From Nonlabens sp. (GTDB lineage Bacteria; Bacteroidota; Bacteroidia; Flavobacteriales; Flavobacteriaceae), in contig JAHDIQ010000004.1 of the NCBI GenBank assembly GCA_020630715.1, positions 136,522 through 200,521 on the forward strand: a DNA stretch of 64,000 nt, given 5' to 3'. The stretch's first letter is position 1; the number at the start of each line of letters is the position of its first letter. Of the stretch, positions 1,341-64,000 are shown in pieces. A model generated the notes under the pieces. The model made no database searches, was not told the origin of the DNA, and saw nothing but the letters and a program-made list of their open reading frames with translations. The translations under genes were made by a program, and so were the position numbers.

Positions 1341-2477
1341 ATGTCGCAAGATAAAATATGGCTATCTTCTCCACACATGGGTGGTGCAGAGCGTGACTTT
1401 GTAAAACAAGCATTTGATACAAACTGGGTAGCACCTTTAGGACCTAATGTAAACGGTTTCGAAAAAGATTTAGAAGATTATCAAGGCGAGAATGTACATG
1501 TAGCAGCATTGTCTAGCGGTACAGCAGCTATACATCTTGCACTCGTGCAGGCTGGTGTGACAGCTGGTGATGAGGTTATTTGTCAAAGCTTTACCTTTTG
1601 TGGTACTACAAACCCAGTATTATATCTAGGTGCCACACCAGTGATGGTAGACAGTGAGCCAGATACGTGGAATATGTGTCCACAAGCTTTGAAAAACGCC
1701 ATAGAAGATCGTATCGCTAAAGGCAAAAAGCCTAAGGCTATTCTAGCAGTACATCTGTATGGAATGCCCTATAAGGTTGATGAGATTCACGCTTTCGCGA
1801 AAGCGTACTCCATACCAGTCATAGAAGATAGTGCAGAGGCTTTAGGAAGTAGCTTTAAAGGACGTAAATGTGGAACTTTTGGTGACTACGGAATCTTAAG
1901 TTTTAATGGGAATAAGATTATTACGACCAGCGGTGGTGGTGCCATGGTATGCCCTACAAAAGAAGTAAAAGAGAAAACCGTTTTTCTAGCAACTCAAGCA
2001 CGTGACAACGCACCGCATTATCAACATAGTGAAATAGGATATAATTATAGGCTGAGTAATATTTCTGCTGGAATAGGCCGTGGACAAATGCAAGTTCTAG
2101 ATAAGCATATCGATTTACGCAGGGCGATGCATGATTTTTATGTTGATATTTTTAAAGACGTTTCAGGTATTACTGTTTTTTCAGAGCCTAATGAAGAGTA
2201 TTATAGTAATCATTGGTTAAGTGCCATCCTTGTTGACCCAGAAAAAACAAACGGTATCACTAGAGAAGATTTGAGACTTGCCTTTGAAAAGGAAAATATT
2301 GAATCTAGACCATTGTGGAAACCTATGCACATGCAACCGCTTTATAAGAACTATCCATTCTATGGAACAGGTGTTTGTGAAAAGCTTTTTAAAAACGGTT
2401 TATGCTTACCATCAGGTTCAAATCTAACAGAATCAGATAGAAAACGCATTGAATTAGTCGTTAAGAAAACTTTTTGA
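1341..2477 (+). CDS. DegT/DnrJ/EryC1/StrS family aminotransferase (PglE-like)
   Basis: SSGTAAIHLAL, EDSAEALGSSFKGRKCGTFGDYGILSFNGNKIITTSGGG PLP-Lys motif. Confidence 0.93.
   Translation: MSQDKIWLSSPHMGGAERDFVKQAFDTNWVAPLGPNVNGFEKDLEDYQGENVHVAALSSGTAAIHLALVQAGVTAGDEVICQSFTFCGTTNPVLYLGATPVMVDSEPDTWNMCPQALKNAIEDRIAKGKKPKAILAVHLYGMPYKVDEIHAFAKAYSIPVIEDSAEALGSSFKGRKCGTFGDYGILSFNGNKIITTSGGGAMVCPTKEVKEKTVFLATQARDNAPHYQHSEIGYNYRLSNISAGIGRGQMQVLDKHIDLRRAMHDFYVDIFKDVSGITVFSEPNEEYYSNHWLSAILVDPEKTNGITREDLRLAFEKENIESRPLWKPMHMQPLYKNYPFYGTGVCEKLFKNGLCLPSGSNLTESDRKRIELVVKKTF
1790..1805. repeat. CGCTTTCGCGAAAGCG iterated palindrome (in CDS, AFAKA frame)
   Basis: Exact 16-bp palindrome. Confidence 0.97.
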
Positions 2478-2512
2478 TTAGTTGAGTTATCTTTATACCA
2501 AATATTTAAACC

Positions 2513-5272
2513 ATGAAAAACATTTACGTATTAGCCTTACTTTTAATAGGTTGTAATATAAACGCGCAGTCTTTTAGAACTGTAACTTTGTCTGGAAATG
2601 CAACTGATTTTACCGCACAAGAAAGTTACAACGCACTAGAAAATAATGCCATAACTTATGGTGTAGCTTACGATGAGAATAATATCTACTTAAGTGTTAT
2701 TAATACTACAGGAACCTATGGCCAGTCTGATAGTTTTAACATATTCATAGATACTGATCCTGATGGTGATGTATCAGGAAGTAATATCGGGTCTGAGTTT
2801 GCTAACGTGACGCCTTCTTTACCATTTAATGCAGATTATGGAATCCGTGTGGAAGAAAATTACAATGAAAGACGTTCTTGGAACGGAGCGGACTGGAGTA
2901 GTGTAGTTCAAAATTTCACTTCTCAGGTAGGAAATAATCATAGGCAGTTTGTATTATCAAAAGCAGACATAGGAAATCCAGAGATGATACGTTTTACCAT
3001 GTGGATGGGTTACAACGGTGGAACATTTGCAGAGGTCCCAGCAGATCGTACACCTAATAACGATAACAATCCAGTTTTTATAGAGTACTTTGGTTCAGTA
3101 GATATTAATAGAGCCGGTTCTAATCCTTCAAAAGTGGTAAATACAAATGGAATTTATGCAAGCTATACATCTAGCACTACAATACCTTCTGGTACTTATT
3201 CTAGACTAGAGGTAGATGGGTTTCCCACAGTCGCTGGTGATATTACGATTGCAGCCGGTGGAACATTATCCATAACAGGAATTACGATTTTAAACTTAGG
3301 ATCAAACAATTTAACTTTTAACGATTGGGCAGGAATGGCAGTAGATGTAGGTCCTCCAGGAACTGTAAATGGAACAGGTCAGGTTACCTTTAGCAATGGT
3401 TGTATGTCTCGTACGAATAACAACTCTAGCAATGTAGCTTTAACTATAAATCCAGAAATTGTTGTAAATGGTCAATTTTATGCATTAGGACCGCAAGTAC
3501 GAAATGCAATAACTTTTAATTCAAACGCATTTAATCACGCGCCATTGAGATATTCTCAAGGATCTGTACTTACCTATCGTAGTAATTTAATGACTACTAC
3601 AGGTCCAGAATGGGGAACAGGATCAATTGTAGCACTTAATGGTGTGCCAGATAATGTGATCGTAGATCAGCCTTCTTTACAATTTGATACTGATAAAAAC
3701 CTATTCGGTTACCTGCAAATAGATAGTGGTAACTTAAACCTTAATGGATTTGATTTAATATTGAAATCAGACACATCACGCAGTGCGGTAATTGGACCTA
3801 TTAATACCACTGCTGGTGCATCCTTAACTGGAAATACCGTCGTAGCTAGAAAGTATATTCCTAGAAGAGCAGATTTTAATCCAGCCTTTAGATTTTTAGC
3901 AAGTCCTGTAAACGGTCAAACCATTTATGAATCTATTCAAGCTAATGGCTCTACACCTATTTTAGGTGGAACACAAGTAACAGGTGGATCCAGCACAGAC
4001 GGATTTGATCAGTCTTCTACAAATAACCCTAGTATGTTTAACTATAACAATACTAATCAAGCATGGGAAGCTGTAGCAAATACTAATGCTACTCCATTTG
4101 AAATAGGTGTTCCATATAGAACGTTTATTAGAGGTGATAGAGGTGTGAGTCTTACCATGCCTAATCAACCGGCAACAGTAACCACCTTAACTGCAACGGG
4201 AAGTATTGTTCAAGGTGATGTGACCTACAATTCTAGTTCTACGGTAAATGCATTGAGCAATCAAGCAAGTGGTTTTAATATGATTGCAAATCCATATCCG
4301 TCTTATACAGATATGTCTTTAGTAATGGATCAAAGTACAGATGTGAACCCTAATTTTTACTACATGTGGGATCCTACCGTAAACACTCGTGGTGCCTATG
4401 TAACCGTGTCGTTAAGTACCACAAACACTATGATCAATGGAAGTAACAATATAATGACTAGTGATGCAGATCAATTTTTAGAACCATGGCAATCTTGTTT
4501 TATTGTGAATGACGCAAGTGCCAGTAATGTAAGTGTGCTTTTTACAGAGAATACAAAGACTACAGAAACAACAGCGACAAATGTATTTAATACACCAGCT
4601 ACTATTAATAGAGTAGGTCTTTCTTTAATTAGTGATACAGATACGGTTTTAGATGGAGTATTAGTAGATTATGACCCTACTTTTTCAAATGCTATCGATG
4701 CGATGGATGCCTTAAAGTTTAGTAACCTAGATGAAAATATAGGTGCTCAAGTAAATGGTAATTCCTACAGCATTTTACGCAATGAGATGCCAGTAGATGG
4801 TGAAATACTTCAGCTGAATCTAGGGAATTATAGAAATACCAATTATAAGATTAGTATGCAATTAGATGGCCTTTCTGCCTATGATATTACCTTAGTTGAT
4901 AATTATTTGAACACACAACATGATCTAAATACAGGTGATTATAGTTTCTCAATAGATTCAGCTATTGCAGCCTCTACCGCTTCAGATCGTTTCTACATCA
5001 TATTTGGTAATGTTACTTTAGGTAGTGATGATGCCGCTTTCGCGAAAGCGATATCCCTTTACCCTAATCCAGTAGACAACGGCCTTTTATTTGTAAGAAA
5101 CACTACAGGAAGGGAGCTTACCGCAACTATTTATAATATGATGGGACAAGTAATATTAAGCAAATCGGTAGTAAACGGTTTCATTGATATGAGTTCATTA
5201 CATACAGGAGCTTATATTGTTAGGCTATCAAATGATAAAAATAGCATCAGTAAACAAATCATGGTGAACTGA
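2513..5272 (+). CDS. T9SS-secreted protein with type A C-terminal sorting domain
   Basis: Signal peptide MKNIYVLALLLIGCNINAQ; C-terminal SLYPNPVDNGLLFV...GAYIVRLSNDKNSISKQIMVN typical T9SS CTD. Confidence 0.88.
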   Translation: MKNIYVLALLLIGCNINAQSFRTVTLSGNATDFTAQESYNALENNAITYGVAYDENNIYLSVINTTGTYGQSDSFNIFIDTDPDGDVSGSNIGSEFANVTPSLPFNADYGIRVEENYNERRSWNGADWSSVVQNFTSQVGNNHRQFVLSKADIGNPEMIRFTMWMGYNGGTFAEVPADRTPNNDNNPVFIEYFGSVDINRAGSNPSKVVNTNGIYASYTSSTTIPSGTYSRLEVDGFPTVAGDITIAAGGTLSITGITILNLGSNNLTFNDWAGMAVDVGPPGTVNGTGQVTFSNGCMSRTNNNSSNVALTINPEIVVNGQFYALGPQVRNAITFNSNAFNHAPLRYSQGSVLTYRSNLMTTTGPEWGTGSIVALNGVPDNVIVDQPSLQFDTDKNLFGYLQIDSGNLNLNGFDLILKSDTSRSAVIGPINTTAGASLTGNTVVARKYIPRRADFNPAFRFLASPVNGQTIYESIQANGSTPILGGTQVTGGSSTDGFDQSSTNNPSMFNYNNTNQAWEAVANTNATPFEIGVPYRTFIRGDRGVSLTMPNQPATVTTLTATGSIVQGDVTYNSSSTVNALSNQASGFNMIANPYPSYTDMSLVMDQSTDVNPNFYYMWDPTVNTRGAYVTVSLSTTNTMINGSNNIMTSDADQFLEPWQSCFIVNDASASNVSVLFTENTKTTETTATNVFNTPATINRVGLSLISDTDTVLDGVLVDYDPTFSNAIDAMDALKFSNLDENIGAQVNGNSYSILRNEMPVDGEILQLNLGNYRNTNYKISMQLDGLSAYDITLVDNYLNTQHDLNTGDYSFSIDSAIAASTASDRFYIIFGNVTLGSDDAAFAKAISLYPNPVDNGLLFVRNTTGRELTATIYNMMGQVILSKSVVNGFIDMSSLHTGAYIVRLSNDKNSISKQIMVN
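5035..5050. repeat. CGCTTTCGCGAAAGCG iterated palindrome (in CDS, AFAKA frame)
   Basis: Exact 16-bp palindrome just before T9SS CTD. Confidence 0.97.
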
Positions 5273-5295
5273 TCACTTTATATTTGAAACAAGAT

Positions 5296-5337
5296 AAAAA
5301 GCTACTATTACCGATAAAGGTTCTAGTAGCTTTTTTT
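5296..5337 (+). terminator. Rho-independent-type hairpin
   Basis: AAAAAGCTACTA...TAGTAGCTTTTTTT. Confidence 0.8.
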
Positions 5338-63733: not shown

Positions 63734-63804
63734 AAGGCTTATTTTAACCAAATTTAATGTGATAAACGTCATTGATTTGGTGTTAACGGCAAATCCACTA
63801 CCTT

Positions 63805-63812
63805 TATTTTTG
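63805..63812 (+). promoter_or_regulatory. Bacteroidetes -7 element (TATTTTTG)
   Basis: Consensus match before the edge-truncated HTH gene. Confidence 0.5.
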
Positions 63813-63825
63813 TGAAAAACGCAAT

Positions 63826-64000
63826 ATGAATTATCAAGAGCTGGTATTATTACGCTTTCGCGAAAGCGAAACACACCACAAATCCTTTACTCAACATCTA
63901 GCAGATACGCTAGAAATAAGCTATGATGCAGCTTATCGTCGTATTCAAGGGAAAGCTAAACTGGATGTAAGTGAAGCGATGCAACTGGCTAAAGCTGGTC
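63826..64000 (+). CDS. 5' end of an HTH (BetR-like) protein, truncated by window
   Basis: ATG at 63826: MNYQELVLLRFRESETHHKSFTQHLADTLEISYDAAYRRIQGKAKLDVSEAMQLAKAG; TATTTTTG promoter-like element 13 nt upstream; absent from ORF track. Confidence 0.75.
   Translation, partial: MNYQELVLLRFRESETHHKSFTQHLADTLEISYDAAYRRIQGKAKLDVSEAMQLAKAG
63853..63868. repeat. CGCTTTCGCGAAAGCG iterated palindrome (in CDS, RFRES frame)
   Basis: Exact 16-bp palindrome. Confidence 0.97.

Follow-up and report, generated by a model that had tools for sequence, protein, structure and literature searches.

A 14-bp palindrome repeated hundreds of times in the genomes of Nonlabens, Dokdonia and a third genus of marine bacteria

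A 64-kb stretch of a Nonlabens genome (the whole stretch analysed, hereafter the window; C14:136522-200521 of the 2.98-Mb, 36% GC genome G000) contains scattered copies of a palindrome whose invariant unit is the 14-mer GCTTTCGCGAAAGC. Across the genome we found 609 copies of this 14-mer and 448 of the full 16-mer, where practically none were expected. Because the copies are evenly spaced and are kept letter for letter amid changing genes, the cells must use the palindrome; telling their own DNA apart, or recombining it, is the most likely use. It is best read as a new lineage-specific signal, known in three groups of marine bacteria: Nonlabens, Dokdonia and a third genus, g209.

Number and lineage distribution

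Two controls set the level expected without a signal. Permuted palindromes of equal composition did not occur in the genome at all, and 100 dinucleotide shuffles of the window gave a mean of 0.06 matches, against the 16 sites present there; with 609 real copies, chance and base composition were rejected as the source. The iterated palindrome described from the window by the first-pass annotation is therefore real, and the scale given there was too modest.

We then surveyed the family by a sample of genera. All 24 Nonlabens genomes sampled carried the 16-mer (187-737 copies each), as did both genomes of genus g225, which we take as Dokdonia (630 and 550), and the third motif genus (153 16-mers and 408 14-mers). 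The other ~235 genera sampled in the family held 0-13 copies and the remainder of the order almost none, so a Bacteroidetes-wide signal was rejected. The first-pass annotation had named three outcomes that would speak against a signal, namely a genome-wide count near expectation, confinement to the window and a lack of conservation in sister genomes; we found hundreds of copies beyond expectation, spread throughout the genome and across the genus. Literature searches for the palindrome string found no published description, and a search for papers tying Nonlabens or Dokdonia to a palindrome returned nothing relevant.

No high-copy dialect of the shorter 10-bp core TTTCGCGAAA was seen in other genera. 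In one Dokdonia genome (G247) and in the g209 genome (G231), this core outnumbered the 14-mer (1109 vs 859 and 559 vs 408, respectively), which suggests a looser dialect of the palindrome in these two genomes than in Nonlabens.

Copies in motif-poor genera appear to have arrived with foreign DNA. In genus g93 (genome G115), five of the few copies (L309, L314, L319, L324 and L329) were clustered in a 25-kb metal-efflux and resistance island (C3:30831-56754) whose proteins are 57-96% identical to Nonlabens proteins. The same inter-copy spacings (933 and 3460 bp) were seen again in several other motif-poor genera, and the copies there are therefore probably passengers of transferred DNA as well. 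The palindrome may thus serve as a natural tracer of DNA exported from Nonlabens and Dokdonia, marking genes elsewhere in the family that originated in the motif genera.

Phages carry the palindrome too. In IMG/VR, contigs marked as phage by hallmark genes (major head, tape measure, Mu-type portal or integrase) had 2-6 copies or more, with a density and flanking arms like those of the host, and showed little similarity to host proteins. Temperate-type contigs, some of 42-48% GC, had the motif at host-like density (L131, L133, L134, L139, L146, L150, L151, L156 and L163). P12024L and P12024S (L332 and L333), lytic phages of Nonlabens with ERF and YqaJ recombination proteins of their own, lacked it even when two mismatches were allowed; each also had zero TCGCGA, where base composition predicts about four. 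Matches to the flanked site among cultured phages and plasmids were all attributable to chance.

Conservation, placement and anatomy of the site

Conservation was assessed against a second Nonlabens species (G020), whose proteins share 69% identity with those of the window's genome. Of 223 alignable intragenic copies, 175 (78%) were exact at the same codon position in the G020 orthologue, whereas random 14-mers were identical between these species in 2.2% of cases. Exact retention was about 77% (75-82%) whether protein identity was below 50% or above 80%; this likeness across identity classes indicates that the DNA word itself is kept. Syntenic intergenic copies were kept in 115 of 171 cases. 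Some copies were even common to Dokdonia and Nonlabens at orthologous places, in a set biased by the alignment seeds.

The copies avoid one another. Their spacing had a coefficient of variation of 0.52, against 1.03 (range 0.93-1.17) in simulations with the same gene/intergenic split, and only 16 gaps were shorter than 1.5 kb, against 169 simulated. In G020, a near-complete chromosome of which 2.80 of 2.92 Mb was read, 704 copies were spread evenly from origin to terminus, mostly at 22-33 per 100 kb and with fewer in island-rich stretches, and a terminus or origin signal was rejected on this uniformity. Motif deserts in G020 were mostly ortholog-poor islands, together with a conserved block of 25 genes. 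In both species a 16-kb desert covers 25-28 genes in a conserved block, ribosomal protein genes among them (C9:8447-24411 in the window's genome; G020:228304-244245). Another region of the window's genome (C16:171781-184830) runs for 13 kb without a copy and without a complete gene called by the simple script from which all our gene calls derive; it is possibly a ribosomal RNA region or a very long gene.

Copies sit in permissive places. Intergenic DNA holds 42% of them and 14% of bases, mostly in tandem or divergent regions; convergent regions had only 13 copies where ~36 were expected by length, and transcription terminators were accordingly rejected as an explanation. The genic copies (58%) occupy all three frames, with AFAKA favoured. 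Signal-peptide-like starts ending in the palindrome accounted for 21 genic copies in the window's genome and 25 in G020, with Q as the next residue in almost half. In these AFAKA-encoding copies at the signal-peptide end (~20 per genome), one stretch of DNA serves both as the motif and as the code for a signal peptidase site. Density was higher in core than in accessory genes (0.150 vs 0.111 and 0.171 vs 0.065 per kb), and copies were rarest in the most constrained proteins. The first-pass annotation's statement that no gene holds more than one copy was nearly right: genome-wide, 333 genes have one copy and 9 have two.

The site itself consists of an exact dyad with structured arms. The 16-bp perfect palindrome first described proved to be a true dyad with a shorter invariant unit: 14 bp are exact, the adjoining outer base is C/G in 86% of copies and the base beyond that is free. 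Half-sites were enriched only when abutting (spacer zero), and lone halves showed no enrichment. Single-mismatch copies numbered 103 against 609 exact ones; the commonest of these decayed forms were species-specific, with C to T or G to A at the central CpG in the window's genome and T to C or A to G in G020. On either side, symmetric arms run outward, A/C-rich and strongly G-poor 5' to 3', to ~26 bp (roughly GCG-W-AATCAMCACAACC), leaving a G/T-rich strand 5' of the site on both strands. Weaker waves extend to about ±60 bp and were seen in intergenic and genic copies of both species; Dokdonia and other Nonlabens loci have the same arms, more weakly. Estimated from these two related species, the wave in the arms repeats every 18.5 bp (bootstrap 95% 18.2-18.7), and a second period of ~3.05 bp was found in copies where, after masking of genes, no frame stays open across the 60 bp on either side. 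Both periods stood above every jittered control. A codon artefact was rejected as the origin of the wave, which persists in the same frame-free, gene-masked copies. RecA-family filaments have a helical turn of ~18.5 nt and a triplet step, and we know of no other common DNA filament that combines the two; the arm periods match both values and may reflect a filament of this kind.

A possible self-DNA signal and the alternatives

The behaviour of the palindrome resembles that of the DNA uptake sequence (DUS) of Neisseria and the uptake signal sequence (USS) of Haemophilus, with hundreds of evenly spaced copies, core enrichment, permissive places, extreme conservation in place, depletion in acquired DNA and weak extended flanks (PMC2397512, PMC7811141). 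For the neisserial DUS, core-genome enrichment, permissive places and stringent conservation have been described together with a spacing linked to conversion fragments (PMC2397512). In Riemerella columbina, described as a member of Flavobacteriaceae, transformation favours the species' own DNA, by a signal that is unknown there (PMC7965970). Together, the DUS-like population signature and the arm periods favour a signal that raises the recombination or uptake of DNA bearing the palindrome. The presence of the palindrome on temperate-phage contigs and its absence from the two lytic Nonlabens phages also point this way.

Our preferred explanation, which we put forward tentatively and rate as somewhat short of probable, is that the palindrome is a chromosome-wide mark of the cell's own DNA, read by a putative dimer and promoting recombination or uptake. 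A two-fold-symmetric candidate protein would bind the 14-bp dyad as a dimer, as the symmetry implies, and would act outward for ~60 bp along the A/C-rich, G-poor DNA to either side, as the arms imply. Its most likely action would be to start homologous recombination, by RecA-type loading, or to admit DNA for transformation. Signal-bearing DNA would then recombine into relatives more often than signal-free DNA, and broken copies would be overwritten in place by intact ones; such biased replacement would produce the even spacing, the permissive locations and the letter-perfect conservation. A more specific version, which we consider doubtful, holds that in Nonlabens, Dokdonia and the third genus a protein bound to the palindrome seeds a RecA-family filament in fixed register at ~600 sites, making site-bearing DNA a preferred recombination donor, and that the signal spreads by donor-biased conversion. 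If true, this would be a recombination-based self-recognition signal without known counterpart.

Several observations weigh against a self-DNA signal. When proteins were screened for a helix-turn-helix pattern and for charge, none stood out convincingly as the binding protein. The type IV pilus platform protein is central to known DUS and USS uptake, and its family (PF00482) was absent in G000, G003, G020, G023, G247 and G231, with G412 the only motif genome tested that has it. ComEC was present in motif genomes and equally in motif-free genera, and no published account of natural competence in either Nonlabens or Dokdonia came to light. To our knowledge, established uptake sequences are not palindromes: DUS and USS are oriented 9-12-mers, whereas the Nonlabens site is a palindromic 14-mer with symmetric A/C-rich arms and an 18.5-bp wave, and it is found on temperate phages. 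Phage carriage is also compatible with roles other than a self-DNA signal, and a protein array of another kind, with the same step, could produce the RecA-like 18.5-bp period. The palindrome shares with DUS and USS its over-representation, even spacing, in-place conservation, core enrichment and permissive sites, a likeness of sequence behaviour; because only one of the motif genomes tested has the type IV pilus platform gene, we regard it as DUS-like in behaviour and not as a DUS.

Few bacterial sequence signals are this strong, and for most of them (DUS/USS, Chi, KOPS and parS) finding the reader uncovered a basic process. The Nonlabens/Dokdonia palindrome is among the longest and most exact, in marine hosts that include cultivated strains. 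It offers a bait for the binding protein and a way to test whether transformation is sequence-specific in a phylum for which hardly any uptake signal is known.

The first-pass annotation had proposed a recognition site for a DNA-binding, recombination, uptake or chromosome-organising system, matching no named family. The genome-wide excess, genus-wide conservation, exact dyad and lack of a literature match agree with this, and the options can be narrowed: a recombination or uptake signal ranks best and a chromosome-organising anchor second. The anchor, a possible though less favoured explanation, would be a nucleoid protein seated on the dyad every 4-5 kb, spreading along the arms in 18.5-bp steps and bridging or anchoring the DNA, with direct selection on each site. 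The exact fixed-spacing dyad with long periodic arms, the even spacing with uniform origin-to-terminus distribution, and the preference for tandem and divergent intergenic regions are all consistent with it; however, strong selection would be needed on each of ~600 near-redundant sites, and carriage on temperate-phage DNA would be unexpected. Two named organising systems were not supported. Sites of the ParB family (parS and Noc) are likewise contiguous palindromes of 14-16 bp with TTTC...GAAA halves, but they differ in sequence and are few and at the origin, against ~600 uniform copies here. A parS/ParB site was rejected, as canonical parS lies near the origin and a single chromosomal-type ParB, encoded by one gene copy, occurs in motif and non-motif genomes alike. 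KOPS and matS are polarised to or confined to the terminus, and no origin-terminus trend was seen in G020.

A Chi-type site, at which the AddAB helicase-nuclease would read the sequence and switch to RecA loading, with the palindrome working from both directions, is in our view improbable. AddA and AddB are present, the density of one copy per 4-5 kb is similar to that of Chi in E. coli, and the G/T-rich strand 5' of the site on both strands and the RecA-like arm periods would suit such a role, as would the presence of the motif on temperate phages and its absence from lytic phages with their own ERF/YqaJ genes. Known Chi sites, however, are 5-8 nt long, directional and read on a single strand, whereas the palindrome is a longer, strict 14-bp dyad without orientation. 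AddAB was equally present in motif-free genera among the genomes tested. AddB was only 47-60% identical among motif-bearing Nonlabens, odd for the reader of an invariant 14-mer, and had one fixed difference between the groups in the part compared.

Operators of a global transcription regulator are very unlikely. The 42% of copies in the 14% of DNA that is intergenic, mostly tandem or divergent, would fit them, but the 58% that are intragenic use every frame, keep their even spacing wherever promoters lie, and are conserved no less than the intergenic ones. An SOS operator was rejected, the SOS motif of Flavobacteriaceae being GGA-N5-TCC (PMC8565304).

Even less likely is an origin like that of the highly iterated palindrome HIP1 (GCGATCGC) of cyanobacteria, in which a methyltransferase and mismatch repair acting at TCGCGA would generate the copies without selection for function. 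HIP1 is also a genome-wide, clade-restricted iterated palindrome of unsettled function (PMC4390886), and the centre of our site, which the first-pass annotation named as a possible methyltransferase target, is CpG-rich. However, HIP1 is an 8-bp word tied to methyltransferase targets and occurring ~once per kb, whereas the Nonlabens site spans 14-16 bp plus arms, and its core words show no enrichment beyond the complete site: 609 of 656 occurrences of TTCGCGAA are complete 14-mers. Structured arms of ~60 bp per side, not known from any methyltransferase target, and the strong repulsion in spacing also argue against this origin. Mobile repeats of the repetitive extragenic palindromic (REP) or miniature inverted-repeat transposable element (MITE) kind share the high copy number and dyad symmetry but insert as units with longer fixed sequence, and they were rejected as the least likely source, since only 14 bp are fixed here, the alignment is mostly gap-free where the relative lacks an intragenic copy, and copies hold orthologous places through the depth of the genus and sometimes between genera.

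Copies within the window

The window holds 12 exact 16-mers and two copies in which T replaces the first C (32774 and 38339), giving 14 exact 15-mers; two weaker variants (16471 and 43643) bring the total to 16 sites, all given here without strand. They are scattered and never tandem, and their spacing too is as first described. The first exact copy, CGCTTTCGCGAAAGCG at 1790..1805, lies within a plus-strand gene (1341/1377-2477), and the next two, at 5035..5050 and 8467..8482, lie within plus-strand genes at 2513-5272 and 5414-8713. The copy at 14153..14168 is within a minus-strand gene (13997-14734), that at 21102..21117 is intergenic (21049-21138), that at 26453..26468 is within ftsK (24421-26859, minus strand) and that at 42968..42983 is within a minus-strand gene (42163-43236). 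The copy at 51794..51809 is within a plus-strand gene (51560-52297), and that at 54212..54227 is within selO (53984-55576, minus strand). Two further exact copies are intergenic, at 46607..46622 (after 46446) and 59123..59138 (after 59043). The 22-bp extended dyads TTACGC...GCGTAA noted earlier were borne out at 46604 and 51791, around the copies at 46607 and 51794. The last exact copy, at 63853..63868, is at the start of a gene leaving the window or inside a minus-strand open reading frame (63608-63874).

Both outer-T copies keep the 14-bp core intact. That at 32774..32789 (TGCTTTCGCGAAAGCG) was called intergenic (32601-33075) but is overlapped by a plus-strand open reading frame (32635-33078), and that at 38339..38354 is within a minus-strand gene (38217-41165). 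Of the two weaker sites, AGCTTTCGCGAAAGTG at 16471..16486 has one mismatch in the 14-bp core and lies within a minus-strand gene (16235-17413), and the degenerate copy GCTTTTCGCGAAAGCG at 43643..43658 has an intact right half and follows the preceding copy by 675 bp.

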